A stretch of DNA of 64,000 bases from an uncultured Lachnospiraceae bacterium. Lineage in GTDB: Bacteria; Bacillota; Clostridia; Lachnospirales; Lachnospiraceae. The stretch is taken from contig CANQHZ010000002.1 in assembly GCA_947623805.1 (NCBI GenBank), positions 1 to 64,000 on the forward strand. The letters run 5' to 3'. Of this stretch, positions 49,518-63,192 are shown piece by piece. The translations under genes were made by a program, and so were the position numbers. Under the pieces are notes generated by a model. The model saw nothing but the letters and a program-made list of their open reading frames with translations. It was not told the origin of the DNA and did no database searches. How positions within the stretch are numbered: the stretch's first letter is position 1; each line of letters starts with the position of its first letter.

Positions 49518-51398
49518 CTATTGCTTGTGCGGCTGCCATACCTTCTCTCTGTATGTGCTGTTGCCAAATAAAATATCATAATCTACGATTTTATAATTCT
49601 GTACTGCCTCTGTTTGGATATCATTATATATCTTGAGAGGATTTCCGTTGTTATCTTCTACCAGATATCTTGTGTTTGTTTTTAATATTTCTTTTTCATA
49701 TTTCAAAATCTGTGTCATATCGGATTCCGGCAAGCTTGCATATTCAAGGATAATCTGAGGCAGATAGTTAATGTTTTCACCTGTAAATTCTACTTTTTTG
49801 TTATTAAAATTGCTCCACATTATTACAGGAACAGAATATTGGCGTTTTGTTGTATCATAATCATTGTCATCCAGTCCAAGCGCTCTCAAAGAATTATATG
49901 TCATGAAAGGAAAATGGTCCCCATACATTATAATGACTACAGGTTCATCAATATTTTCAAAATAATCTACAAGCTGTGCAAATGCTTTTCCTGCGAGGTA
50001 AATACCGTTGATACAGTTTACCAGTTCATTATAATCGCTTTCTGATACATAATCTTTATCCATTGTTATATCAATCGGATATGGATAATTATTATTTGGT
50101 TTGATTTTATATTCCATTGCCATTGTATGGTTCGCTACAGAAACAGCAAAGATGAATTTGCGACTGCATGTTTCGTCCTCATATTCCTTAATTATTTGTT
50201 TTGAGAGACTCTCATCCGATATGAATACGGAATATATATCTGTATAATCCATGCTATCCTCAAAAATAATCTTGTCAAATCCAAGTTTAGGATATATCTT
50301 ATCTCTATCGTACATATTCCCATAATAAGGATGGATAAATGTAGTTTGGTAATCAAGTGCATGAAAATAATCAACAAGCGACGGCATTTTACGTTGGCGA
50401 AATTTTATATGTATTCCTGTATCCGACATGAAATACTTTGTATTTAGTCCGGTCAGGCATTCCAATTCAGAACTTACAGTACCTCCTCCGTAAATATTAG
50501 TGGAAAGATATCCTGTTGAACAGTCAGGTGCCAGTCTTTTATATGCTTCCATAGGATCTAATGAAAAAGCAATATGTCCGCCTTTTATATTGTCAGTATT
50601 CCACCAGGATTCATTCATAATTATAATAATATTAGGATTCTCATGTGAAATATTTGTCTGAATGTTATCTGATAAAAAATACTCATAACCTGCTTTGGGA
50701 TTTTCATTGTACGAGCCGTTATATTTATCGTCTTTTAAAAATTCATAAAGCAAATATTGCACATGTCCTGTATCAGATATTCCACTTCCGTCTATTATTT
50801 GTGACTTTCCCACCGTTTTTATATATGACAAAATGTATATTAACATTATAATGAAAAGGACTGTTGCCATACCTAAACGTTTCATTAGTTCTTGGATTTT
50901 ATTATTGTGTTCTTTATACGAAATTTTTTTATGAATAAAGCATAAAATAATTCCTGATATAATAAAGAAAAGAAAACCGCACGCAGTCGCAGTCTGCTTA
51001 CTGCTTAAATTAAAATCAAGACTGTGAAATGCCAGTCCCGCCGCTTCTGTAATCCTCAAATCATCAAGTCTAAAAAGTTCATGGCGTAAAGCATATTTAA
51101 TAGAACTTGCATAACTTAATATTAACGATAACATTGATACGACACTGATGCTTAAGCCTGCTTTTCCGGTTATGAACCCAATAATAAATGTTGTAACTGT
51201 TATCACGATACTCTCAAATATATAAATATTATCATTAATGTTCAAAGCCTGGAAATAAAAAAATGAATGTTTTGGCTGAATTAAAAAATAATCCATTAGG
51301 TATGGCGTGCATATTGTAAAAATTAGCAGTAGAATAGATAAAAATAAATAATATATAATTTTTCGGAAATTAACTCTTTTTTTTGCTATGTTATACAT
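49518..51398 (-). CDS. LTA synthase-like phosphoglycerol transferase (copy 1)
   Basis: 626 residues: five N-terminal membrane helices (residues ~12-210), then an extracellular sulfatase-fold domain. The metal and catalytic elements are IIMNESWWNT (metal Glu), GGGTVSSELECLTG (catalytic Thr), HPYYGNMYDRD and MYGDHFPF. This fits the LtaS/MdoB-like phosphoglycerol transferase group. It lies 74 bases downstream of pilin copy 1 on the same strand, beyond a hairpin. A paralogue lies at 61276, at the other end of the pilin region. A surface-polymer or pilin-decorating role is inference. Confidence 0.85.
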   Translation of the reverse strand: MYNIAKKRVNFRKIIYYLFLSILLLIFTICTPYLMDYFLIQPKHSFFYFQALNINDNIYIFESIVITVTTFIIGFITGKAGLSISVVSMLSLILSYASSIKYALRHELFRLDDLRITEAAGLAFHSLDFNLSSKQTATACGFLFFIISGIILCFIHKKISYKEHNNKIQELMKRLGMATVLFIIMLIYILSYIKTVGKSQIIDGSGISDTGHVQYLLYEFLKDDKYNGSYNENPKAGYEYFLSDNIQTNISHENPNIIIIMNESWWNTDNIKGGHIAFSLDPMEAYKRLAPDCSTGYLSTNIYGGGTVSSELECLTGLNTKYFMSDTGIHIKFRQRKMPSLVDYFHALDYQTTFIHPYYGNMYDRDKIYPKLGFDKIIFEDSMDYTDIYSVFISDESLSKQIIKEYEDETCSRKFIFAVSVANHTMAMEYKIKPNNNYPYPIDITMDKDYVSESDYNELVNCINGIYLAGKAFAQLVDYFENIDEPVVIIMYGDHFPFMTYNSLRALGLDDNDYDTTKRQYSVPVIMWSNFNNKKVEFTGENINYLPQIILEYASLPESDMTQILKYEKEILKTNTRYLVEDNNGNPLKIYNDIQTEAVQNYKIVDYDILFGNSTYREKVWQPHKQ

Positions 51399-51444: not shown

Positions 51445-51472
51445 TATTGTGACAAGTATTGCTATTCAATTA

Positions 51473-51919
51473 TTAGCGACCTAAATCTTCTTTTAATTTT
51501 CCACCGCCAGAACCGTTAGTAACTGTCATTTTGCCATCGGAACCAAAATTGATTGATGAGCCAGCATACGCAGCACTCTTTAATTTCATAGTGGAATAAC
51601 TAATTCCTGCATCATCTAAAGCTGTTTTAATAGAGCCAGAAGGAGAACCAATTATAGGATCGCCAGCCTTAGCAGCAATGGTGATAGCTCCTTGTACAAT
51701 AGTATGGTCGGGATCTGATGAATATATTTCGATTGCGGAAATAATGGCATCGATATTATCAAGATCTGCCGATTTTCTTGATTTATCAACGTACTTCAAA
51801 TACTGCGGTGCCAACACACCAATCAATACAGCCATAATTGCGATAACAATGATTAACTCTACAAGGGAGAAACCTTTGTTATCAAGTTTCTTTTCTTTTA
51901 GTTCATTTAATTTGTTCAT
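51473..51919 (-). CDS. Type IV prepilin, copy 1
   Basis: About 148 residues from ATG 51919 (GTG 51928 is an alternative only 3 bases from the AAAGGA site). A 16-residue leader ends in KG, and the mature protein begins FSLVELIIVIAIMAVLIGVLAPQYLKY, with Glu at position 5. The first ~50 residues match copies 2 and 3 almost perfectly, while the globular part is unrelated except for a final LGR shared with copy 3. It has the shared leader block upstream but no good -35 box. Confidence 0.9.
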   Translation of the reverse strand: MNKLNELKEKKLDNKGFSLVELIIVIAIMAVLIGVLAPQYLKYVDKSRKSADLDNIDAIISAIEIYSSDPDHTIVQGAITIAAKAGDPIIGSPSGSIKTALDDAGISYSTMKLKSAAYAGSSINFGSDGKMTVTNGSGGGKLKEDLGR

Positions 51920-52247
51920 TGGATTCACATATCCTTTCCATTGTTAATTTTTTTGACTAAGTAATTACCGCATCCAAAGATACAGCACACCCTTAATCAT
52001 AATATTGGTTGACAGTTACACTAAAACCTTATCCACCCTGCCTCATGAACAGCACCCTCCAGCCATGCTGCATATACATACATCACTTCCCATCCTCCGG
52101 CAAATGCCCTCATGACTGTACTCAGCGGACAACTCATATGTACCAGCCGCGCCGCATATTTCGTAAAATATGCCATATAAGACAACAAACCATCCCGCCG
52201 CAGCCGCTTATTTTTTATACATATATTATACTTAAGGGGCAATTAAA
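51776..52247 (-). repeat. Shared pilin promoter/leader/N-terminus block, copy 1
   Basis: About 470 bases that recur at 55117-55589 (opposite orientation) and 60689-61160 (same orientation); by eye about 12 differences in 330 leader bases against copy 2. It runs from TTAAnnGCCCCTTAAGTATAAT through the leader into the first 51 pilin codons. The -35 position here reads AAACGA. It fills most of the 534-base gap between pilin 1 and the recombinase gene. Confidence 0.92.
52021..52188 (-). CDS. Possible 55-residue leader ORF in pilin block 1
   Basis: TTG-started frame LLSYMAYFTKYAARLVHM... ending at TAG about 90 bases before the pilin gene. Copy 2 keeps the frame with mostly third-position changes; copy 3 has a one-base deletion. 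It could instead be a structured untranslated leader. Confidence 0.25.
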   Translation of the reverse strand: MLSYMAYFTKYAARLVHMSCPLSTVMRAFAGGWEVMYVYAAWLEGAVHEAGWIRF

Positions 52248-52317
52248 TCGTTTTGAACCAAATAAGCACCATTTATATTAGGCGCAATTATTATATCAGC
52301 TAACCGTCAGTACAATG

Positions 52318-52346
52318 TTGCTAAAGCAATCACTCGACCGTATAAT
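52318..52346 (+). promoter_or_regulatory. Sigma-A promoter of the recombinase gene
   Basis: TTGCTA at 52318-52323, 17-base spacer, TATAAT at 52341-52346; about 105 bases before the start codon. Confidence 0.65.
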
Positions 52347-52453
52347 ATAAATAAAAACAAAAAGCGTCAAAATTATAAGTCAAAAAGTCAAAGGGCATCT
52401 GAAAAGATGTCCTGCTTGATTTTATAAGACAATTATTAAGGAGGTCATTTTAT

Positions 52454-53485
52454 ATGGCATTATTTCCATGCCCCGAATGTGGGAAATCTATTTCTGACAA
52501 GGCTATTTTGTGTCCGTCATGCGGTTATCCGGTGCGCTTGACAGAAACACCTATGGCTGACAGGTTGTTTCCCGGTTTTGCAGAGTTGTGCTTTACTTTG
52601 CAGTCAAACCGCCGTTGTACAGCATCTGCCAAATATATGAATATTACTTTTGCCGAGTTGTATGAGCAATACTTTGAAAGCAAGTATACAAATTCCAAAA
52701 GAAAACTGTCAGCCTCGGCAGGGTATTCCGCTCATGCAGCATTTAAAAACTGTCAAAAACTTCACGAAATGAGATTTGCAGATTTAAGAAAAAATGATTT
52801 GCAGGAAATCATTGACACATGTCCTTTGAAACATTCAAGCCTCGAACTGATTGTTTCTCTTTTCAGAGGAATGTACGCCTATGCCATTCAAAATGATATT
52901 GTAGAAAAAGATTACTCGCGGTTCGTCCGCATAAACATTCCCGACGATGACGAAAACGGCGTGCCTTTTTCATCAAGAGCGCTGGAAATTCTTTGGAAAA
53001 ATCGCGACAAAGAAATTGTCAAAATTATTCTTTTGATGATATATACAGGTTTTCGCATTTCTGCCTATCGGACAATACAATATAATGAAACGGAACAATA
53101 TTTTAAAGGAGGCGTGAAAACTGCCGTAAGCAAAAACAGAATTGTCCCGCTACATCCCGCAGTACAAGCTTTTGCAAAAGACTTCGCCGCAAAATATTTA
53201 TCGGGAAATGAAATTTTTGCAGTAAATAAATTCCGTAAAAACTTTTATAAAACGCTTAACTCTCTCGGATTAGCGACATCAAATTTAGGCACAAAGCACA
53301 CGCCGCATGACTGCCGGCACACATTTTCGTGGCTTTGCGACAAATATGGAGTAGACGACCTTTCCAAACGAATGTTGATGGGACATTCCCTTGGAAAAGA
53401 CATCGAAAAGTCGGTATACGGTCATAGAACTTTCGATGAATTGAAAACGGAAATCAACAAAATCAAATCGCCTGATTTGGTATAA
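52454..53485 (+). CDS. Tyrosine recombinase with N-terminal zinc ribbon
   Basis: 343 residues. Residues 5-25 form a zinc ribbon (CPECGKSISDKAILCPSCG). A SAM-like core-binding region (~55-155) precedes the catalytic domain with all expected residues: Arg in YTGFRISAYR, Lys in VSKNRIVPLH, HDCRH, then GHSLGKDIEKSVYGH with the nucleophilic Tyr. RBS AAGGAGG. It is encoded between two inverted pilin blocks, which makes DNA inversion of the pilin promoter region a natural hypothesis. No phage genes or tRNA attachment site are nearby. Confidence 0.88.
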   Translation: MALFPCPECGKSISDKAILCPSCGYPVRLTETPMADRLFPGFAELCFTLQSNRRCTASAKYMNITFAELYEQYFESKYTNSKRKLSASAGYSAHAAFKNCQKLHEMRFADLRKNDLQEIIDTCPLKHSSLELIVSLFRGMYAYAIQNDIVEKDYSRFVRINIPDDDENGVPFSSRALEILWKNRDKEIVKIILLMIYTGFRISAYRTIQYNETEQYFKGGVKTAVSKNRIVPLHPAVQAFAKDFAAKYLSGNEIFAVNKFRKNFYKTLNSLGLATSNLGTKHTPHDCRHTFSWLCDKYGVDDLSKRMLMGHSLGKDIEKSVYGHRTFDELKTEINKIKSPDLV

Positions 53486-53539
53486 GTTGCAATTTTGTAT
53501 AATCATTTCGCAAAAAAGAATGTATGTTCTAATTTTACG

Positions 53540-53568
53540 TTGACTTCAGAACAATAGTTTGGTAAAAT
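53540..53568 (+). promoter_or_regulatory. Sigma-A promoter of the rpn gene
   Basis: TTGACT at 53540-53545, 17-base spacer, TAAAAT at 53563-53568; 82 bases upstream of the start codon. Confidence 0.7.
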
Positions 53569-53649
53569 ACATAAGAACATAAGTTCACTGCATTAAATTA
53601 TGGCAGAAAGGCACAAGTTATGTTACTATATAATAAAAGGAGTTTGTGA

Positions 53650-54663
53650 ATGGGCGCAAAAGATATTACTGAGAAAATATTGGCTGATTATAATGACGTG
53701 TTTGCTGACATTATAAATGGTGTATTGTTTGACGGTGAACAAATCGTATCCGAAAATGCGCTGGAAAACGTCAAGGATAAAAGCCAGTACAAATTTAACA
53801 GCAAAATCCATGAACAAGAACGCGACGTATCCAAAAGCTGGATTCCATCTGGGGTTTGTTTCGCGCTCTACGGTTTTGAACATGAAACAGAGGCAGAACC
53901 ATATATGCCAATGCGAATTATTGGATATGACGGCGCGTCATATCGAGGGCAGTTGCTAAGCCACAATAAGGGCAAGATAAAATATCCGGTTGTTACCATT
54001 GTACTGTATTTCGGCACAAAACACTGGAATCAGCCGCGTAGCCTGCATGAATGTCTGACAATTCCTGAAAGGTTGAAACCATATGTAAATGACTATAAAA
54101 TTAATCTCGTGGAAGTCGCTTTTTTAGACGATAAGCTTGATAATTTCCATAGTGATTTCCGCATTATTGCCGAATATTTTGTCAACAAGCGCAAAGGCTC
54201 GGACTATATTCCGAACGCACAAACGATTAAACACATAGATGAATTTTTGAAATTGCTGCAGGCATTGACTGGCGATAAGAGATATTATGAAGTTTTGGAA
54301 TCATTGCAGGAAACAGAAAAGCGGGAGGGGATTAAAATGTGTGAGATTTTGGATAAAATTGAAAATAGGGGGATTGCTATTGGGGAAGAACGCGGGGAAA
54401 AGCGCGGCATTGTTATCGGTGAAAAGCGTGGTATTGCTATTGGGGAAAAGCGCGGCATTGCCATAGGTAAAGAACATGGAATCGCTATCGGGGAAAAACG
54501 CGGAATTGCTATTGGGGAAAAACATGGTCGCAACGAAATCAATAGACTCGTCGCTATTTTGTTGGAGGAGAATCGGATAGACGACTTAAAGCGGGCAGTG
54601 CATGATACAGAATATCAGCAGCAACTCATGATTGAGTATGGAATTTGCAAAGATTATGAGTAA
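53650..54663 (+). CDS. rpn: Rpn family recombination-promoting nuclease / transposase-like protein
   Basis: 337 residues of the clostridial Rpn type (PD-(D/E)XK nuclease-like): AKDITEKILADYNDVFADI, IGYDGASYRGQLL, FRIIAEYFVNKRKGSDYIP. From residue 230 a C-terminal tail carries MCEILDKIENRG, then about six GIAIGEKR-type octapeptides and a helical end. A strong Shine-Dalgarno (GGGAGGGG) and ATG lie inside the gene in front of MCEIL. Rpn proteins have been described as toxic nucleases blocked by a short protein made from an internal start; the same layout is visible here. The C-terminal unit is duplicated just downstream. Confidence 0.88.
   Translation: MGAKDITEKILADYNDVFADIINGVLFDGEQIVSENALENVKDKSQYKFNSKIHEQERDVSKSWIPSGVCFALYGFEHETEAEPYMPMRIIGYDGASYRGQLLSHNKGKIKYPVVTIVLYFGTKHWNQPRSLHECLTIPERLKPYVNDYKINLVEVAFLDDKLDNFHSDFRIIAEYFVNKRKGSDYIPNAQTIKHIDEFLKLLQALTGDKRYYEVLESLQETEKREGIKMCEILDKIENRGIAIGEERGEKRGIVIGEKRGIAIGEKRGIAIGKEHGIAIGEKRGIAIGEKHGRNEINRLVAILLEENRIDDLKRAVHDTEYQQQLMIEYGICKDYE
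54337..54663 (+). CDS. Predicted intragenic short Rpn product (antitoxin-like)
   Basis: 108 residues in frame with rpn, from ATG 54337 with GGGAGGGG six bases upstream, a better site than that of the full gene. It contains only the octapeptide-repeat tail. The gene-within-gene arrangement is known for Rpn antitoxins; expression here is inferred. Confidence 0.55.
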   Translation: MCEILDKIENRGIAIGEERGEKRGIVIGEKRGIAIGEKRGIAIGKEHGIAIGEKRGIAIGEKHGRNEINRLVAILLEENRIDDLKRAVHDTEYQQQLMIEYGICKDYE

Positions 54664-54733
54664 TCTATCACTAACTGTATTTTAAGATTTTTGTTAATCA
54701 TTGCAGGAAACAGAAAAGCGGGAGGGGATTAAA

Positions 54734-54988
54734 ATGTGTGAGATTTTGGATAAAATTGAAAATAGGGGGATTGCTATCGGGGAAAAACGTGGGGAAAAAC
54801 GTGGCATTGTCATCGGTGAAAAACGCGGAATTGCTATTGGTGAAGAACGTGGTCGCAACGAAGCCAACAGCCTCGTCGCTATTTTGTTGGAGGAGAATCG
54901 GATAGATGACTTAAAGCGAGCAGTGCATGACGAGGAATATCAACAGCAGCTTATGATTGAGTATGGAATTTGTGAAGATTGCGAATAA
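54734..54988 (+). CDS. Stand-alone duplicate of the Rpn C-terminal unit
   Basis: 84 residues from ATG 54734, again behind GGGAGGGG. The DNA from CATTGCAGGAAACAG (about 54699) repeats that of the rpn gene from about 54302. The protein has only three octapeptide units (GIVIGEKR, GIAIGEER and a longer first one) against six in rpn, and the end LMIEYGICEDCE. The nuclease domain is missing. It may be a fragment left by tandem duplication, or a functional extra antitoxin since its start signals are intact. Confidence 0.6.
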   Translation: MCEILDKIENRGIAIGEKRGEKRGIVIGEKRGIAIGEERGRNEANSLVAILLEENRIDDLKRAVHDEEYQQQLMIEYGICEDCE

Positions 54989-55110
54989 TTTGATATAAAA
55001 AATTATCACGCAGTAGCCAGTTTGAATGAATGTGTTGACATGCTGAACAAGCTTTATTGGATATATTGATAAAAATATTTAGAAAATATTTAGAAATTTT
55101 AGTAAAAGTA

Positions 55111-55139
55111 TTGCATTTTAACCGCCCCTTAAGTATAAT
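55111..55139 (+). promoter_or_regulatory. Sigma-A promoter of pilin copy 2
   Basis: TTGCAT at 55111-55116, exact 17-base spacer, TATAAT at 55134-55139. The -10 and most of the spacer belong to the shared block; the -35 is outside it. The corresponding -35 positions are AAACGA in copy 1 and TTCTCA in copy 3. Confidence 0.8.
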
Positions 55140-55589
55140 ATATGTATAAAAAATAAGCGGCTGCGGCGGGAGGATTTGTTGTCTTATGTGGCATATTTTA
55201 CGAAATATGCAGCGCGGCTGGTACATATGAGTTGTCCGCTGAGTACAGTCATGAGGGCATTCGCCGGAGGATGGGAAGTGATGTATGTATATGCAGCATG
55301 GCTGAAGGGTGCTGTTCATGAGGCAGGGTGGATAAGATTTTAGTGTAACTGTCAACCAAATATTATGATTAAGGGTATGCTGTATCTTTGGATGCGGCAA
55401 TTACTTAGTCAAAAAAATTAACAATGGAAAGGACATGTGAATCCAATGAACAAATTAAATGAACTAAAAGAAAAGAAACTTGATAACAAAGGTTTCTCCC
55501 TTGTGGAGTTGATTATTGTTATCGCTATTATGGCTGTATTGATTGGTGTGTTGGCACCGCAGTATTTGAAGTATGTTGAGAAGTCAAGA
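55117..55589 (+). repeat. Shared pilin promoter/leader/N-terminus block, copy 2
   Basis: Same block as 51776-52247, in the opposite orientation. Its leader includes a perfect hairpin GCATATTT-TACG-AAATATGC at 55191-55210 that is conserved in all copies. The 448-base stretch 54989-55436 otherwise holds only AT-rich sequence. Confidence 0.92.
55176..55343 (+). CDS. Possible 55-residue leader ORF in pilin block 2
   Basis: TTG start five to eight bases after GGGAGG; frame LLSYVAYFTKYAARLVHM... to TAG. It differs from copy 1 by two residue changes and three silent changes. Coding status is uncertain. Confidence 0.3.
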   Translation: MLSYVAYFTKYAARLVHMSCPLSTVMRAFAGGWEVMYVYAAWLKGAVHEAGWIRF

Positions 55590-55907
55590 GTAGCCAGTGA
55601 TAGGGATAATATAACAGCAATTAAAGATGCTATACAAGTATATGGTGCTGACCCTGATGCAGATGCTTCTAAGCCATTGGCAAATGGAGACACTGTAGTT
55701 CTTACACGAGACGGTACTGGTGCTAGTATTTCTGGTGATGGTGTAAAAGAGGCATTAAAAGCTGCTGGTTTACCTGACGACGCAACTAAATTACCCAAAC
55801 TTCAAAATCAACAGAAGAAAAAGAAAGTAATAATAACAGTTACTATTAATTCTACTACAAAAAATGTGTCAGTTACAGATGATTTTGACACACCTGACAC
55901 TCCCTAA
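55446..55907 (+). CDS. Type IV prepilin, copy 2
   Basis: About 153 residues (ATG 55446; GTG 55437 alternative). Prepilin leader ending KG, mature start FSLVELIIVIAIMAVL, nearly identical to copies 1 and 3 for ~50 residues. The variable part is different (VYGADPDADASKPLANG) and ends in a basic stretch and TDDFDTPDTP, lacking the LGR end of the other copies. It is the only copy with a consensus promoter, so probably the expressed one in this genome configuration. Confidence 0.9.
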   Translation: MNKLNELKEKKLDNKGFSLVELIIVIAIMAVLIGVLAPQYLKYVEKSRVASDRDNITAIKDAIQVYGADPDADASKPLANGDTVVLTRDGTGASISGDGVKEALKAAGLPDDATKLPKLQNQQKKKKVIITVTINSTTKNVSVTDDFDTPDTP

Positions 55908-56036
55908 CATATAGGATTTGCTTTATTATTGATTAGTTTTGTTTATCAATACTCATATTTACTAGTAAATACTATCTTGCTAAGCAATGTTAAAAGCTGA
56001 AAAGTAGATTATAAAAATTTTGGTAGCTCTACAAGA

Positions 56037-56068
56037 CCGTCAAGGAACTCTTTCCCTTGGCGGTTTTT
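56037..56068 (+). terminator. Intrinsic terminator after pilin copy 2
   Basis: CCGTCAAGG ... CCTTGGCGG stem (one G-T pair) followed by TTTTT. It shares the CCGCCAAGG core with the hairpins after copies 1 and 3. Confidence 0.85.
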
Positions 56069-56167
56069 CAATTATGTCACTACTACATAATATATTCCCC
56101 ACTCTCTGATACTCTACTTTCTTCTAACTATATTATTGTGCTTAAGCATTTGCAAAACTCTATTAGA

Positions 56168-56271
56168 CAACATAGAATTTAGGCAAAATATATAAAATAA
56201 GCGGCGTCTCGCGGAGCGCCTAGCCGCGTTTTTATATATTTTGACTAAATTCGGACAGTTTAGAACACATT
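56168..56271 (-). repeat. Dispersed palindromic repeat, copy D
   Basis: Reverse complement of copy A with very few changes over the arms (AATTTAGGCAAAATATATAAAA / TTTTTATATATTTTGACTAAATT); only the central ~35 bases differ. It lies in the 538-base gap 55908-56445, which also holds the pilin 2 terminator and an extended -10 promoter (TGCTATACT at 56383-56391) for the next gene. Confidence 0.88.
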
Positions 56272-56445
56272 TCACAATCACCTAATATTATTACGTTGCG
56301 TCCGCAACATACAAAAAATATATAATTTCACAAATCAATATAATTACTTACCGAAACAACATATACTTTTCCCCTCAATGTATGCTATACTATTAACAGA
56401 TATGCATCATATACATCATAGCACATTCAGAAAGCGAGGCATTGT

Positions 56446-58143
56446 ATGGCAAAAAAAGTAAAACTTCCCGTAGGAATTGAGGACTTTGAAGAAATGCGCA
56501 CCATGGGATATTATTATGTTGATAAAACCAAAATAATCCTTGACCTTATAGACAATTTAGGGAAAGTAAACCTCTTTACCCGTCCAAGGCGATTTGGGAA
56601 AACCTTAAATATGAGCATGCTCAAATTTTTCTTTGAAATCGGCAACGACGGCTCACTCTTTGACGGACTGGAAATTTCCAATGAAAAAGAACTCTGCAGC
56701 GAATATATGGGGAAATTTCCGGTTATTTCAATCAGCCTGAAAAATGTAGAAGGCGCTTCCTTTGATAAGGCGAAAAACAGGCTTCGAACCGTTATAGGAA
56801 CGGAGGCAATCAGATTTTCATTCCTTTCAGACTGTAATAACCTGACAGAAACCGAACGCCAACAATATGCTAAGCTGATTGAATTGAATGACAGCGGCGA
56901 ATTTGCGATGTCGGATGATATGCTGGAAAACAGTCTGTTTCTTCTGTCCGTTTTTTTGCAAAAACATTACGGACTAAAAACAATCCTGCTGATTGATGAA
57001 TACGATGTCCCACTTGATAAGGCATACCAGTCAGGATACTATGATGTCATGGTTCAACTGCTTAGGTCGCTGTTTGGACAGGTGCTCAAGACAAACAGCA
57101 GCTTATATTTTGCGGTGCTTATAGGCTGCCTTAGAATTTCAAAGGAAAGCATCTTTACCGGACTTAACAATTTTAAAATATATACGGTAAAGGATGTTCA
57201 GTACAATGAATATTTCGGTTTTACGAATGACGAAGTCAGGAAAATGCTTGCATACTACGGATTTATGGAAAAATATGAGGTCATGAAAGAATGGTATGAC
57301 GGCTATTGTTTTGGCAGTTTGGAGGTTTACTGTCCATGGGATGTGGTAAACTATTGCCATGCATTGAAGATGAATCCGGCGGAAATCCCGCAGAACTACT
57401 GGGTAAATACAAGCAGTAATGATATTATCAGAAATCTAATAAACAAATCTGATGCGTCAACAAAAGATGAGATTGAATCGCTGGTAAACGGTGGAAGCAT
57501 AAAAAAGGAAATTCATCAGGAACTGACCTACAGAGATTTGGATTCTGATATTGACAACCTTTGGAGCCTGCTCTTTACTACTGGATATCTGACGCAGAAT
57601 GGGAATGACGAAGATGGCGTGTCAAAGCTTGTCATTCCAAACAAGGAAATTCTCTGGATATATGTCCGGCAAATCCGCGGATGGTTTCAAGACGAAACCA
57701 AAAAAGACCCTAATAAATTAAACGATTTTCGCAGGGCATTCGAGGCAAATGACACGGTCGCAATAGAGAAAATTTTTACATCATATCTGCGAAAAACCAT
57801 CAGCATACGAGACACAAATGTCAGGCAGGAAATGAAAGAGAATTTTTATCACGGAGTATTGTTGGGGTTATTTGCAGGTATGGAGGGCTGGAATGTCAAG
57901 TCAAACGCAGAAGCCGGCGACGGCTACAGTGATATCAGCATAGAGATTGCAGATAAGGAAATCGGTATAATAATCGAATTAAAATACGCCGAGAATGCGA
58001 CGCTGGAGAACGGCTGCAAAGAAGCATTGAGACAAATTCATGACAAAAGATATGAGGAGATACTGGCTGACAATGGAATGAACATCATATACAAGTACGG
58101 CATCGCCTGCTACAAAAAACGCTGCAAGGTAATATCGGAATAA
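56446..58143 (+). CDS. AAA-ATPase-like / PD-(D/E)XK nuclease protein (DUF1703), copy 1
   Basis: 565 residues. The N-terminal AAA-like domain begins LPVGIEDFEEMRTMGYYYVDKT and has a Walker A-type RPRRFGKTLNMS and Walker B ILLIDEYDVPLDKA. The C-terminal nuclease-like domain has D...E-x-K: GYSDISIEI ... IIIELKYA. This family is highly expanded in gut Firmicutes and Bacteroidetes; its role is not established, with defence or mobile-element links suggested. An inverted paralogue follows at 58408. Confidence 0.85.
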   Translation: MAKKVKLPVGIEDFEEMRTMGYYYVDKTKIILDLIDNLGKVNLFTRPRRFGKTLNMSMLKFFFEIGNDGSLFDGLEISNEKELCSEYMGKFPVISISLKNVEGASFDKAKNRLRTVIGTEAIRFSFLSDCNNLTETERQQYAKLIELNDSGEFAMSDDMLENSLFLLSVFLQKHYGLKTILLIDEYDVPLDKAYQSGYYDVMVQLLRSLFGQVLKTNSSLYFAVLIGCLRISKESIFTGLNNFKIYTVKDVQYNEYFGFTNDEVRKMLAYYGFMEKYEVMKEWYDGYCFGSLEVYCPWDVVNYCHALKMNPAEIPQNYWVNTSSNDIIRNLINKSDASTKDEIESLVNGGSIKKEIHQELTYRDLDSDIDNLWSLLFTTGYLTQNGNDEDGVSKLVIPNKEILWIYVRQIRGWFQDETKKDPNKLNDFRRAFEANDTVAIEKIFTSYLRKTISIRDTNVRQEMKENFYHGVLLGLFAGMEGWNVKSNAEAGDGYSDISIEIADKEIGIIIELKYAENATLENGCKEALRQIHDKRYEEILADNGMNIIYKYGIACYKKRCKVISE

Positions 58144-58407
58144 TTTTATTTCCAAAAAGAGACTGGCGCAGCAAGGATTATACGTACAAGATACAGTATA
58201 ACATTAAGCCAAATTATACTATGTTTTGTTCTTGTATTCCTTGGTGTGACAGCCCTTTTTTGATACGCTCAGTATGAGCGCAATCTAAGCATAGATACCT
58301 ACACGCCTTAATGATGTTAATTGATTTTTAAATGATAAGACCATTTATACCATCTGCATTGCCTGACTTTCTAATTTCCTGACTATAACCTTTGAAGATA
58401 AATAAAT

Positions 58408-60105
58408 TCACCCTGATATTACCATGCAACGTTTCTTGTAGCAGGCAATGCCATATTGGCGTATGACTTTCATTCCGTCGTCAATCAATGTCTCCTCATA
58501 ATTTCTGTCTTTAATTTGTTTCAGCGCCTCATTGCATCCGCTTTCCAATGCTGCATTCTCAGCATATTTTAATTCAATGATAATACCGATTTCCTTATCC
58601 TCAATCTCCACGCTGATATCACTGTAGCCATCGCCGGATTCGGCGTTTGATTTAACTTTCCAGCCATTCATACTCGTAAATAATCCCAGCAGGATTCCGT
58701 GATAAAAATTCTCTTTCATTTCTTTCCTGACATTGGTATCGCGTATACTGATGGTTTTTCTAAGATAGGATGTAAAAATTTTTTCTATTGCAGCCGTATC
58801 GTTTTCCTCGAATGCCGTGCGGAAATCATCTAATTTATGCAGGTCTTTCTTAGCTTCATCTTGAAACCATTTGCGTATCTGTCGGACATATATCCAGTAA
58901 ATTTCACGGTTTGGAATGATTAGCTTTGATATGCCATCTTCATCATTCCCATCCTGCGTCAGATATCCGGTCGTAAACAGGATACTCCACAAGTTATCAA
59001 TTTCCGAATCCAAATCTCGGTAGGTCAATTCCTGATGAATTTCTTTTTTTATGTTACCGCCGTTCACCAGCAATTCAATCTCATCCCTTGTAGACGCATC
59101 GGCTTTGCTTATAAAGTTTCTTATGATATCGTTGCTACTCGTGTTTGCCCAGTAGTTTTGCGGGGTCTCCTCCGGATTCATTTTTAGTGCATGACAGTAA
59201 TTCACCACATCCCATGGGCAGTAAACTTCCAAATTACCAAAACGGTAGCCGTCATACCACTCTTTCATGACTTCGTATTTTCCCATCAATCCATAGTATA
59301 TAAGCATTTCTCTGACTTCTGCATCCGTAAACCCGAAATATTCATTATATTGCACATCTTTTATGGTATATACTTTAAAGTTATTGAGACCGGTAAAGAT
59401 ACTTTCCTTTGAAATTCTTAGACAACCCGTAAGCACGGCGAAATACAGGCTGCTGTTTGTCTTGAGTACCTGCCCAAACAGGGCTCTGATGAAATCTACC
59501 ATGGTGTCATAGTACCCTGACTGGTATGCCTTATCAAGCGGGACATCATATTCGTCAATCAGCAAAATTGCCTTTTGTCCATAATGTTTTTGAAGACAGC
59601 TTGAAAGCAGCAGAAGACTTCCCTTTAAAAGTTCGTCTGCCATTGTAAATATTCCATCATCGTCAACATGAATCAGTGCCTTGTATTGTTTGCGCTCTGT
59701 TTCTGAAAGACGTTTACTCTCCGCAAGGAAAGAAAATCTTAACGCTTCTTTACCTATAATACTGCGCAATTGCTGTTTTGCTTCATCGAAAGTATCACTG
59801 GAGGCGTTTTTCAAACTGATTGAAATAACCGGAAATTTTCCCATATATTCGCTGCAGAGTTCTTTTTCATTGGAAATTTCCAGTCCGTCAAAGAGTGAGC
59901 CATCATTGCCGATTTCAAAGAAAAATTTGAGCATACTCATATTTAAGGTTTTCCCGAATCGCCTTGGACGTGTGAAAAGGTTCACTTTCCCCAGATTATC
60001 TATAAGGTCACGGATTATTCCGGTTTTGTCAACGTAATAATATCCCATGGTACGCATTTCTTCAAAGTCTTCAATTCCTATGGGAAGCTTTACTTTTTTT
60101 GCCAT
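58408..60105 (-). CDS. AAA-ATPase-like / PD-(D/E)XK nuclease protein (DUF1703), copy 2
   Basis: 565 residues from ATG 60105 behind GAGAGGC; the ORF-track extension upstream lacks a site. Same length and architecture as copy 1 and very similar throughout, with Walker A RPRRFGKT, ILLIDEYDVP and IIIELKYA. The two genes are tail to tail, separated by 264 bases in which I see no feature. Together with the flanking pilin copies they form an inverted duplication. Confidence 0.85.
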   Translation of the reverse strand: MAKKVKLPIGIEDFEEMRTMGYYYVDKTGIIRDLIDNLGKVNLFTRPRRFGKTLNMSMLKFFFEIGNDGSLFDGLEISNEKELCSEYMGKFPVISISLKNASSDTFDEAKQQLRSIIGKEALRFSFLAESKRLSETERKQYKALIHVDDDGIFTMADELLKGSLLLLSSCLQKHYGQKAILLIDEYDVPLDKAYQSGYYDTMVDFIRALFGQVLKTNSSLYFAVLTGCLRISKESIFTGLNNFKVYTIKDVQYNEYFGFTDAEVREMLIYYGLMGKYEVMKEWYDGYRFGNLEVYCPWDVVNYCHALKMNPEETPQNYWANTSSNDIIRNFISKADASTRDEIELLVNGGNIKKEIHQELTYRDLDSEIDNLWSILFTTGYLTQDGNDEDGISKLIIPNREIYWIYVRQIRKWFQDEAKKDLHKLDDFRTAFEENDTAAIEKIFTSYLRKTISIRDTNVRKEMKENFYHGILLGLFTSMNGWKVKSNAESGDGYSDISVEIEDKEIGIIIELKYAENAALESGCNEALKQIKDRNYEETLIDDGMKVIRQYGIACYKKRCMVISG

Positions 60106-60292
60106 ACAATGCCTCTCTTTCCGAAAAATATCACGATGCATATGCTGTATATTTGCTAATAGTATAACACACATTGTTTTGGAAAGTATACCTTATTTGA
60201 AATAATTGCGCCTCTGGTTTTGCCTAATACATAAAAAGGGCAGCTCGTTCATAACCTCTTTTTCTTTATTTGCCCCTTATAACGATATTAAC

Positions 60293-60334
60293 CACAAAAC
60301 CGCCAAAGGCAAATTTTCCTTTGGCGGTTTTGTG
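60293..60334 (-). terminator. Terminator after pilin copy 3
   Basis: Perfect 17-base stem CACAAAACCGCCAAAGG / CCTTTGGCGGTTTTGTG, with A and T runs inside the arms, so likely active in both directions. Confidence 0.85.
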
Positions 60335-60361
60335 ATTCGTCTTATTATTTAAATTAACAGA

Positions 60362-60832
60362 TTAGCGCCCTAAAGCGGCTGCTAATGTAGTATTATTTGT
60401 AATTGCTAAAGTCCACTGACCGGCATTAGTACCAGTAGCAGAAGTTCTGGTCCAAGTGAGTGTATACGTACCAAATTCTTGACTTTTCATTGTTGGATTA
60501 TTGTTTATACCAGCATATTTCAAAGCTTTATCAGCAACATTAGCATCGGGAGTAACAGCAGTATTGGTTCCACCAGCTGTAATTGTTGCCGTAGTGTTGG
60601 TACCTATATCCGTTTGCGTGTCAGGATCAGACAAATATATCTCAACTGCACTAACCATTGACTCAATGCTATCAAGGTCAGCAGACCTCCTTGACTTCTC
60701 TACATATCTAAGATATGTAGGTGCCAATACACCAATCAATACAGCCATAATAGCGATAACAATAATCAACTCCACAAGGGAGAAACCTTTGTTATCAAGT
60801 TTCTTTTCTTTCAGTTCATTTAATTTGTTCAT
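60362..60832 (-). CDS. Type IV prepilin, copy 3
   Basis: About 156 residues (ATG 60832; GTG 60841 alternative). Leader and helix as in the other copies (KG then FSLVELIIVIAIMAVLIGVLAPTYLRY). The variable part is rich in Thr, Ala and Asn (TNTTATITAGGTNTAV) and ends LAAALGR, like copy 1. The -35 region is weak (TTCTCA). Confidence 0.9.
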   Translation of the reverse strand: MNKLNELKEKKLDNKGFSLVELIIVIAIMAVLIGVLAPTYLRYVEKSRRSADLDSIESMVSAVEIYLSDPDTQTDIGTNTTATITAGGTNTAVTPDANVADKALKYAGINNNPTMKSQEFGTYTLTWTRTSATGTNAGQWTLAITNNTTLAAALGR

Positions 60833-61160
60833 TGGATTCACATATCCTTTCCATTGTTAATTTTTCTGACTAAGCAATTGCCGCATCCAAAAGATACAGC
60901 CTCCTCTTAATCATAATATTGGTTGACAGTTACACTAAAACCTTATCCACCCTGCCTCATGAACGGCACCCTCCAGCCATGCTGCATATACATACATCAC
61001 TTCCCATCCTCCGGCAATGCCCTCATGACTGTACTCAGCGGACAACTCATATGTACCAGCCGCGCCGCATATTTCGTAAAATATGCCACATAAGACAACA
61101 AACCCTCCCGCCGCAGCCGTTTATTTTTTATAAATATATTATACTTAAGGGGCGGTTAAT
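60689..61160 (-). repeat. Shared pilin promoter/leader/N-terminus block, copy 3
   Basis: Third copy of the ~470-base block, same orientation as copy 1. One base is missing within the possible leader ORF (GGCATTGCCGG against GGCATTCGCCGG), which would frameshift it. It fills most of the 434-base gap 60842-61275. Confidence 0.92.
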
Positions 61161-61275: not shown

Positions 61276-63192
61276 TTGAAAATGCGCGCTAAGAAGCAGA
61301 AATTTAATCCCCAAATAAAGTCAGACGCCAATGTGCGCTATCCTGTCTACTTTGTAATACTTTCTCTGGGAATATTACTACTGTTCATGATTTTTATGCC
61401 TTATCTGGCGGACTATTATCTGCTCCAGCCTGATATTAACATATTTGAATACTATAATCAGCATGCACTCGATCAATATTATGATTTTGAGGCATTGCTG
61501 ATAAATTTATTTATGTTTGCCGTTTTATGCTTTACCAGGCATACCGGTGTGGCTATGTTTGCCGCGGCGTTGCCTGTAATGATATTGGCATATGTAAGCA
61601 GCATAAAATATGCCGCGCGGAATGAACTTTTTAGGTTTGATGATTTAAAGCTCACGGAAGCGGCGGAAATGGCGGTTCATTATCTTGATTTTAAATTTAC
61701 CGCAAAGCAGCTGTCAGCCATTGCTATGGTATTGTCTTTTTGCATTGCGGGAGGAATACTTGACAGACTTAGAAAGCGCTATCCCGTGGAATGTCTGCGT
61801 AAAATATGGCAAAAGCCGATAACAGCTAGGTTAAGGGTGCTTGCGGGCGTGGCATGTCTGGGTGTCATGGTTTGTTATGCATATCAATACATAGAATCAA
61901 AAAACACTATCTTGGAAATAGATTCCGGAGATGTCTTTGGCGTGGGAAATGACAGGTATGTGCTTTACAATTTCCTTAAAAATGATAAATATGCCTCCAT
62001 TACTGCCGACAATGTGAGCGATTCTTACCGTTATATTGCCGACAATATTCAAACCTCGTCCGGACAGGCAAATGACAGCCAACGTCCCGATGTCATCGTG
62101 ATTATGAATGAGTCGTGGTGGAACACGGATAACGTCAGGGCTGCTGACATATTTTCATCAGACCCTATGCGGATATACAAGGAATTGTCGCAAAAATGCT
62201 CGACGGGATATCTCTCGACAAATATATTTGGCGGCGGGACAATCAGCTCTGAGGCGGAATTCCTCACGGGGATAAATACAAAGCACCTGACTTCGGACAT
62301 TGGGATATATTCTGAGCTGGCAGAGCGGAAAGTGCCATCGATTGTGGATTACTTCCATGCGTTGGATTATAAGGCTACATTCATCCATCCGTATTATGGG
62401 GAATATTATGACAGGGATAAAATCTATTCCATAATGGATTTTGACAAAGTCATTTTTGATGACGATATGGACTATACGGACATTTATACAAAATATATAT
62501 CTGATGAAAGCCTGGTAAAACAGATTATTAAAGAATATGAGGAAAGTGGTGATTCGCCGAGCTTTATATTCGCCGTTTCCATAGCTAATCATATACGAAG
62601 GCTTGGATATAAGACGAAAAGTGTGAATGATTACGATTATCCGATTTCAGTGACGATTGACAAAAGCTCTTTTCGCCCCGAATACTATGATGATTTTGTC
62701 AACTATATTAACGGCATTTATCTGGCAAATGAAGCCTTTTCGCAGATTGTGTCCTATTTTGAAAAACAGGATAGGCCTGTAGTCATTGTGATGTATGGCG
62801 ACCACTGTCCCTCTTTTTCAAGTGAGATTATGGATGCTATGGGGATAAGCGGTACAGATTATGAGGCCCTGAAACGCCAGTATTCTGTGCCGGTAATCAT
62901 GTGGAGCAATTTTAATGATGAAAAGGTGGAATTTACAGGCGAAAATATCAACTATCTGCCGCAGATGCTCCTTGAATACGCCGGGCTGCCCGAGACGGAG
63001 ATGACGCGGATTTTGAATTGTGAGCGCAGTGTTTTTAAGGCCGACACAAGACGCTTTATCCAGGACGGCGATGGCGGTCTGATAGAAAATTATAGTGATA
63101 AACAGAATGAGGCGGCGCGCCACTTTAAAGTTTTGGATTATGACATTTTATATGGTAACAGCGCATACAGGGAAAAAGTGTGGCTGCCTTGA
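61276..63192 (+). CDS. LTA synthase-like phosphoglycerol transferase (copy 2)
   Basis: 638 residues; TTG 61276 has the better spacing to GAAAGG, ATG 61282 is an alternative. Five membrane helices, then the sulfatase fold with IVIMNESWWNTDN, GGGTISSEAEFLTG, HPYYGEYYDRD and MYGDHCPSF. It is clearly paralogous to copy 1 at 49518 along its whole length, including the C-terminus ILYGNSAYREKVW. It is transcribed toward the prepilin peptidase gene. Confidence 0.87.
   Translation: MKMRAKKQKFNPQIKSDANVRYPVYFVILSLGILLLFMIFMPYLADYYLLQPDINIFEYYNQHALDQYYDFEALLINLFMFAVLCFTRHTGVAMFAAALPVMILAYVSSIKYAARNELFRFDDLKLTEAAEMAVHYLDFKFTAKQLSAIAMVLSFCIAGGILDRLRKRYPVECLRKIWQKPITARLRVLAGVACLGVMVCYAYQYIESKNTILEIDSGDVFGVGNDRYVLYNFLKNDKYASITADNVSDSYRYIADNIQTSSGQANDSQRPDVIVIMNESWWNTDNVRAADIFSSDPMRIYKELSQKCSTGYLSTNIFGGGTISSEAEFLTGINTKHLTSDIGIYSELAERKVPSIVDYFHALDYKATFIHPYYGEYYDRDKIYSIMDFDKVIFDDDMDYTDIYTKYISDESLVKQIIKEYEESGDSPSFIFAVSIANHIRRLGYKTKSVNDYDYPISVTIDKSSFRPEYYDDFVNYINGIYLANEAFSQIVSYFEKQDRPVVIVMYGDHCPSFSSEIMDAMGISGTDYEALKRQYSVPVIMWSNFNDEKVEFTGENINYLPQMLLEYAGLPETEMTRILNCERSVFKADTRRFIQDGDGGLIENYSDKQNEAARHFKVLDYDILYGNSAYREKVWLP

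Follow-up and report, generated by a model that had tools for sequence, protein, structure and literature searches.

Three neighbouring pilin genes of an uncultured Lachnospiraceae bacterium appear to share one selection switch that works by site-specific DNA inversion, in which a recombinase would move the only good -35 element from one pilin cassette to another. We consider this reading of the window (the 64,000-nucleotide stretch of contig CANQHZ010000002.1 that was analysed) probable. Only one of the pilins has the upstream half of a promoter, so the cell probably picks its pilin by flipping DNA inside that promoter.

The pilin genes alternate in direction. Copies 1 and 2 are divergent and copies 2 and 3 are convergent, so that each adjoining pair of promoters forms an inverted repeat (Table 1). 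All three copies are complete, with an intact -10 of their own, a leader, a ribosome-binding site and a full N-terminus, and the alignment shows different tails. The copies share a block of about 470 bp, 94-96% identical, that begins at a TTAA within the promoter spacer (55118 in copy 2, 52246 in copy 1 and 61159 in copy 3) and runs through the leader to the pilin N-terminus. The 200 bp upstream of the block are at background among the copies (45-48%).

Table 1. Features of the pilin locus, in window coordinates
Feature	Coordinates	Strand	Remarks
Pilin copy 1, 151 aa	51473..51928	-	N_methyl PF07963, alignment; N-terminus conserved, tail variable
Leader, copy 1	51929..52222	-	94-96% identity among copies
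Candidate recombination site, copy 1: TTAATTGCCCCTTAAGTATAATAT	52223..52246	-	Two mismatches in 7-bp spacer
Predicted invertible segment 1 (copies 1/2)	52246..55118		Holds recombinase and copy-2 -35 flank; inverted sites at both ends
Tyrosine recombinase, N-terminal zinc ribbon	52454..53485	+	Between divergent copies 1 and 2
-35 TTGCAT, copy 2	55111..55116	+	A-rich stretch 55101-55110 upstream; read directly
Candidate recombination site, copy 2: TTAACCGCCCCTTAAGTATAATAT	55118..55141	+	Spans most of promoter spacer and -10 (55134-55139)
Predicted invertible segment 2 (copies 2/3)	55118..61159		Sites inverted, identical over 24 bp
Leader, copy 2, about 290 nt	55142..55436	+	94-96% identity among copies
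Pilin copy 2, 156 aa	55437..55907	+	N_methyl PF07963, alignment; predicted currently expressed copy
Pilin copy 3, 159 aa	60362..60841	-	N_methyl PF07963, alignment; N-terminus conserved, tail variable
Leader, copy 3	60842..61135	-	94-96% identity among copies
Candidate recombination site, copy 3	61136..61159	-	Same as copy 2 over all 24 bp

Several other genes lie in or beside the locus. Predicted segment 1 contains few genes besides the recombinase; one of them, a Transposase_31 (YhgA-like) gene at 53650-54989, has a 24-bp in-frame repeat and a 3' end that is partly duplicated in tandem. Between copies 2 and 3, AAA-ATPase/PDDEXK_9 genes at 56446-58143 (+) and 58408-60174 (-) form a large inverted repeat (81-84%), so that this region looks like an inverted duplication that arose long ago; G034, the genome nearest to the assembly that holds the window (G000), is arranged in the same way. 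Sulfatase-family membrane proteins (PF00884), encoded at 49518-51398 (-) and 61276-63192 (+), adjoin pilin copies 1 and 3. We presume, as a guess, that these may be pilin-modifying phosphotransferases. The one beside copy 1 is absent from that place in G034.

In copy 2, 17 bases on the forward strand separate TTGCAT from TATAAT, and at the same distance from the -10 copy 1 has AAACGA and copy 3 TTCTCA, both on the reverse strand. The preliminary description of this DNA had given these hexamers at exactly 17 bases, a TATAAT and most of a spacer common to all copies, and a junction of identity between -35 and -10 that places the -35 in flanking DNA, and all of these read as described. Its further statement that copy 2 alone has a consensus -35 fails by letter count and stands by comparison with the pilin promoters of the genus. 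TTGCAT matches TTGACA at three of six positions and TTCTCA at four, and copy 3 (10/12), not copy 2, is what a plain consensus scan picks up. The label "consensus" is thus generous for TTGCAT, and what supports copy 2 is comparison.

For that comparison we used nine members of the genus whose single-copy pilin stands outside this arrangement. An exact TTG-N17-TATAAT occurs in five of the nine, against a shuffle expectation of 0.5%, and an A-rich stretch directly precedes the TTG in those promoters (for example, gtaaaaata TTGTAG ttttgtg...TATAAT in G005 and cgtaaaaaaa TTGCAA...TATAAT in G009). The copy-2 flank, agtaaaagta TTGCAT tttaa, is of the same kind, and no other flank has a TTG at the -35 position. 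Its identity is 98% in G034 and 55% in G003 (G003_c) over 200 bp, rising to 100% and 79%, respectively, over the last 40 bp, and a near-exact copy (0-1 mismatch) is found once per genome in G000, G034 and G003. The comparison supports the view that this flank is promoter-bearing and tied to the ordinary pilin promoter of the genus, and that the other copies do without it.

The three pilins could instead all be expressed from their own promoters, with the shared block being a duplicated promoter and leader and the -35 differences serving to tune strength or regulators. The better letter count of TTCTCA, which could also serve copy 3 as a -35, agrees with this, as do the intact -10 elements and the 98-100% conservation of the flanks of copies 2 and 3 in G034. 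Such an arrangement leaves unexplained why the spacer is conserved and sharp-edged, why a recombinase is linked to it and why flank and body have been exchanged there, and we regard it as unlikely.

A conserved element of 24 bp with sharp limits, TTAA-N7-TTAAGTATAATAT, makes up the junction of identity. Across eight sites, conservation is limited to 24 columns with sharp edges on both sides (TTAA n CGCCC n TTA a GTATAAT a T); with its alternatives the pattern is TTAA-N7-TTA(A/T)GTATAAT(A)T, and conservation drops sharply to the left of TTAA and to the right of the arm. In G003, identity between the two divergent cassettes is 96% within the 24 bp and falls to 43% upstream and to 53% over the next 50 bp downstream. 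The promoters of single-copy pilins in the genus commonly have the -35/-10 pattern and lack the element's spacer, so promoter function does not demand that this spacer be conserved. Some 290 bp separate the element from the start of the pilin gene downstream, and it has the look of a recombination site embedded in the -35/-10 spacer. The copy-1 spacer differs from that of copy 2 at two of seven bases, and many tyrosine recombinases would not tolerate two mismatches in a 7-bp spacer. The 24-bp site was not found in viral contigs. The idea that the recombinase recognises a general "CTTAAG palindrome" was rejected, since the other homologues show no enrichment of AflII-type sites nearby, and the definition of the site is thus confined to the pilin loci.

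The gene between copies 1 and 2 encodes a member of the tyrosine recombinase (lambda integrase) family with the R-K-H-R-H-Y residues present. Its match to PF00589 (Phage_integrase) is barely above the cut-off (27.3 against 27.1 bits), its match to a PHROG integrase is strong (1.5e-28), and Zn_ribbon_3 was also matched. The catalytic residues R201, K222, H285, R288, H311 and Y322 do not vary among eight homologues, and an AlphaFold model of moderate confidence has a fold matching Tn1549 Int (E 3.8e-08) and lambda Int. Among 38 genomes of the genus, the closest homologues are in G034 (92%), G003 (76%) and G022 (78%), in each case at the corresponding place beside the pilin promoters. Isolate A4 (G001) has two sites and no close homologue of the recombinase. 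More distant homologues (60-68%) lie in four other genus members (L136, L138, L140 and L141) between ackA and the gene of a large, secreted surface protein, in an arrangement that may be a further surface locus linked to a recombinase.

Relatives across the family (41-55%) often adjoin phage-type repressor genes. Around these family-level homologues we found mostly no large inverted repeats, and many of them resemble phage or mobile-element integrases, which makes it likely that the recombinase is a domesticated integrase. The locus could then be a relic, with the integrase of a mobile element or prophage left beside its attachment site in a pilin promoter and no longer active. The repressor genes beside the relatives fit this, and so do the absence from the window recombinase of about 70 residues present near the N-terminus of its homologues and the common orientation of the locus in G000 and G034. 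Integration leaves direct sites, whereas these are inverted; moreover, the catalytic residues and the position of the gene are conserved across species, and the segment holds little else. We therefore think a relic improbable and favour a recombinase that acts on the 24-bp site.

According to the switch that we propose, each pilin cassette would start with the 24-bp site, comprising most of the spacer and the -10, followed by the leader and the gene, and the A-tract and TTG -35 would come only from the flank now facing copy 2. Inverted sites lie at 52246 (-), 55118 (+) and 61159 (-) and flank segments beside the genes that would be regulated, as in invertons. Acting on these sites, the recombinase would invert 52246-55118, by which copy 1 would take the -35 over from copy 2, or 55118-61159, by which TTGCAT would come to stand in front of the copy-3 body. 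When the first of these inversions was simulated, copy 1 acquired a complete TTGCAT-17-TATAAT promoter and copy 2 was left with AAACGA. The second could give copy 3 the use of that -35, the 24 bp of sites 2 and 3 being identical. Such a switch would be unusually economical: with the crossover point in the promoter spacer, only a -35 would have to move. The -35 would decide expression, one pilin being strongly transcribed at a time and the others weak or off, and inversion would presumably be ongoing. If true, this accounts for adjoining pilins with near-identical starts, different tails and an exact junction between shared and unshared DNA.

A more specific form of this proposal is a split-promoter shufflon, with a crossover in the -35/-10 spacer and a mobile -35 half that chooses between three or more complete pilin cassettes. 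The promoter would be of housekeeping type, each cassette would bring its own -10 and a structured leader RNA, and the recombination site would be the promoter spacer itself, conserved in different species of a Lachnospiraceae genus from animal guts. We put this forward tentatively, as something that could nearly as easily be right as wrong.

The leader that each cassette would bring, of about 290 nt, has a conserved structure according to RNAalifold (10 sequences), with eight pairs showing changes on both sides. Rfam gave no match to it at the gathering threshold or at a relaxed E-value. From sequence, the pilin leader is a candidate new cis-regulatory RNA. The leader of copy 1 also has a 73-codon open frame (52021-52242, reverse strand), in which the substitutions between copies 1 and 2 are mostly synonymous; copy 3 has a one-base deletion in this frame.

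Comparison of genomes located a recombination breakpoint at the short site, between species. G022 has a flank of the G003_a type (74%, against 44% to c) joined to a body of the G003_c type (86%, against 53% to a). When G003 and G022 were compared by BLAST, the match covering recombinase and flank ended at G022:1553 and the inverted match covering leader and pilin started at G022:1530, an overlap that is exactly the 24-bp site. Flank and body have thus been reassorted there, in one lineage or the other. The G022 contig stops at the recombinase, before its other junction, and the chimera could have come from cassette exchange rather than inversion. No inverted configuration was found between G000 and G034, which are collinear over 12 kb in the same orientation, and no alternative junction was found in the G000 assembly. 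Over 51450-52448, the 200-bp flank upstream of the copy-1 site and the pilin tail of copy 1 are at background against G034, and the recombinase and pilin N-terminus are well conserved, which means that this cassette was replaced in one lineage. In isolate A4, a 1,541-bp stretch of pilin, leader, site and flank occurs twice (L098 and L099) with 100% identity, near a 1.8-kb ORF region that is 99.5% identical.

The preliminary description had proposed an expression site with silent copies. Its single promoter-bearing flank is borne out by the comparison within the genus; the other copies, however, are complete genes and no silent donors of the Neisseria kind. The alternating gene directions, the recombinase between copies 1 and 2 and the conserved nature of the junction itself had escaped that description. 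A fixed expression site of the Neisseria type, with RecA-dependent gene conversion carrying tails to copy 2 and the recombinase a bystander, would draw on silent copies that lack promoter and N-terminus, whereas here leader, ribosome-binding site and full N-terminus are present in all three, as is the -10. The shared block is ample for homologous recombination, the tails vary and the leaders look homogenised within G000, as gene conversion would have it. Against it, one and the same 24-bp element bounds the homology of all copies in all the species, four species have retained the recombinase at the locus, and the leaders of the G003 cassettes are too dissimilar (45%) for such exchange, yet their site is 96% conserved. 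Gene conversion seems to us a rather poor candidate, and we prefer inversion, in which the exchange would concern the -35 and not the copying of variable tails to a fixed site.

Among known systems, the R64 shufflon (Rci, sfx) appears similar in having a tyrosine recombinase beside several inverted sites and in varying a type IV pilus component. Its sfx site has a 7-bp core, a conserved right arm and a mostly variable left arm (PMC11852207). Our candidate site seems to be built likewise: TTAA and a conserved right arm enclose a 7-bp core and the left side is variable, except that conservation extends to the TTAA where the left arm meets the core. In R64, Rci swaps C-terminal segments inside pilV, whereas here the site is part of a promoter spacer and the exchange would involve entire genes, set against one single -35. 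The vpma locus of Mycoplasma agalactiae has a unique promoter, complete surface-protein genes and a tyrosine recombinase, Xer1, encoded in the locus, and inversions pick the expressed gene (PMC2268961). The pilin locus is arguably alike in its complete genes, its resident recombinase and an inversion that would pick the gene. Recombination in vpma occurs in the 5' untranslated region, below the whole promoter; here, instead of the single complete promoter upstream of the site that vpma and vsp have, the site overlaps the promoter, each cassette has its own -10 and leader, and only the -35 is unique.

The sap genes of Campylobacter fetus have conserved 5' ends in common and recombine largely through RecA and long homology, with the whole promoter moved, whereas here the recombinase is linked and the site in the promoter is short. 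That locus is a multiple-inversion system in which inversion changes which surface-layer gene is expressed (cited in PMC11852207). Moraxella bovis is cited for a choice between the type IV pilins tfpQ and tfpI by inversion (Marrs 1988, cited in PMC11868660). At the present locus, the enzyme is a tyrosine recombinase and the crossover would fall in the promoter. The Moraxella enzyme, Piv, is by contrast a DEDD enzyme akin to IS110 transposases, and its crossover lies within the pilin coding region. We found no description of a pilin switch of this kind in Lachnospiraceae in the literature searched, the coverage of which was partial. If true, the switch would be a clear-cut example of a Gram-positive gut commensal that varies its pilins by inverting DNA. 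Inversion-based pilin choice itself is already known; what would set this locus apart from the R64 shufflon and vpma is the predicted crossover inside the promoter.
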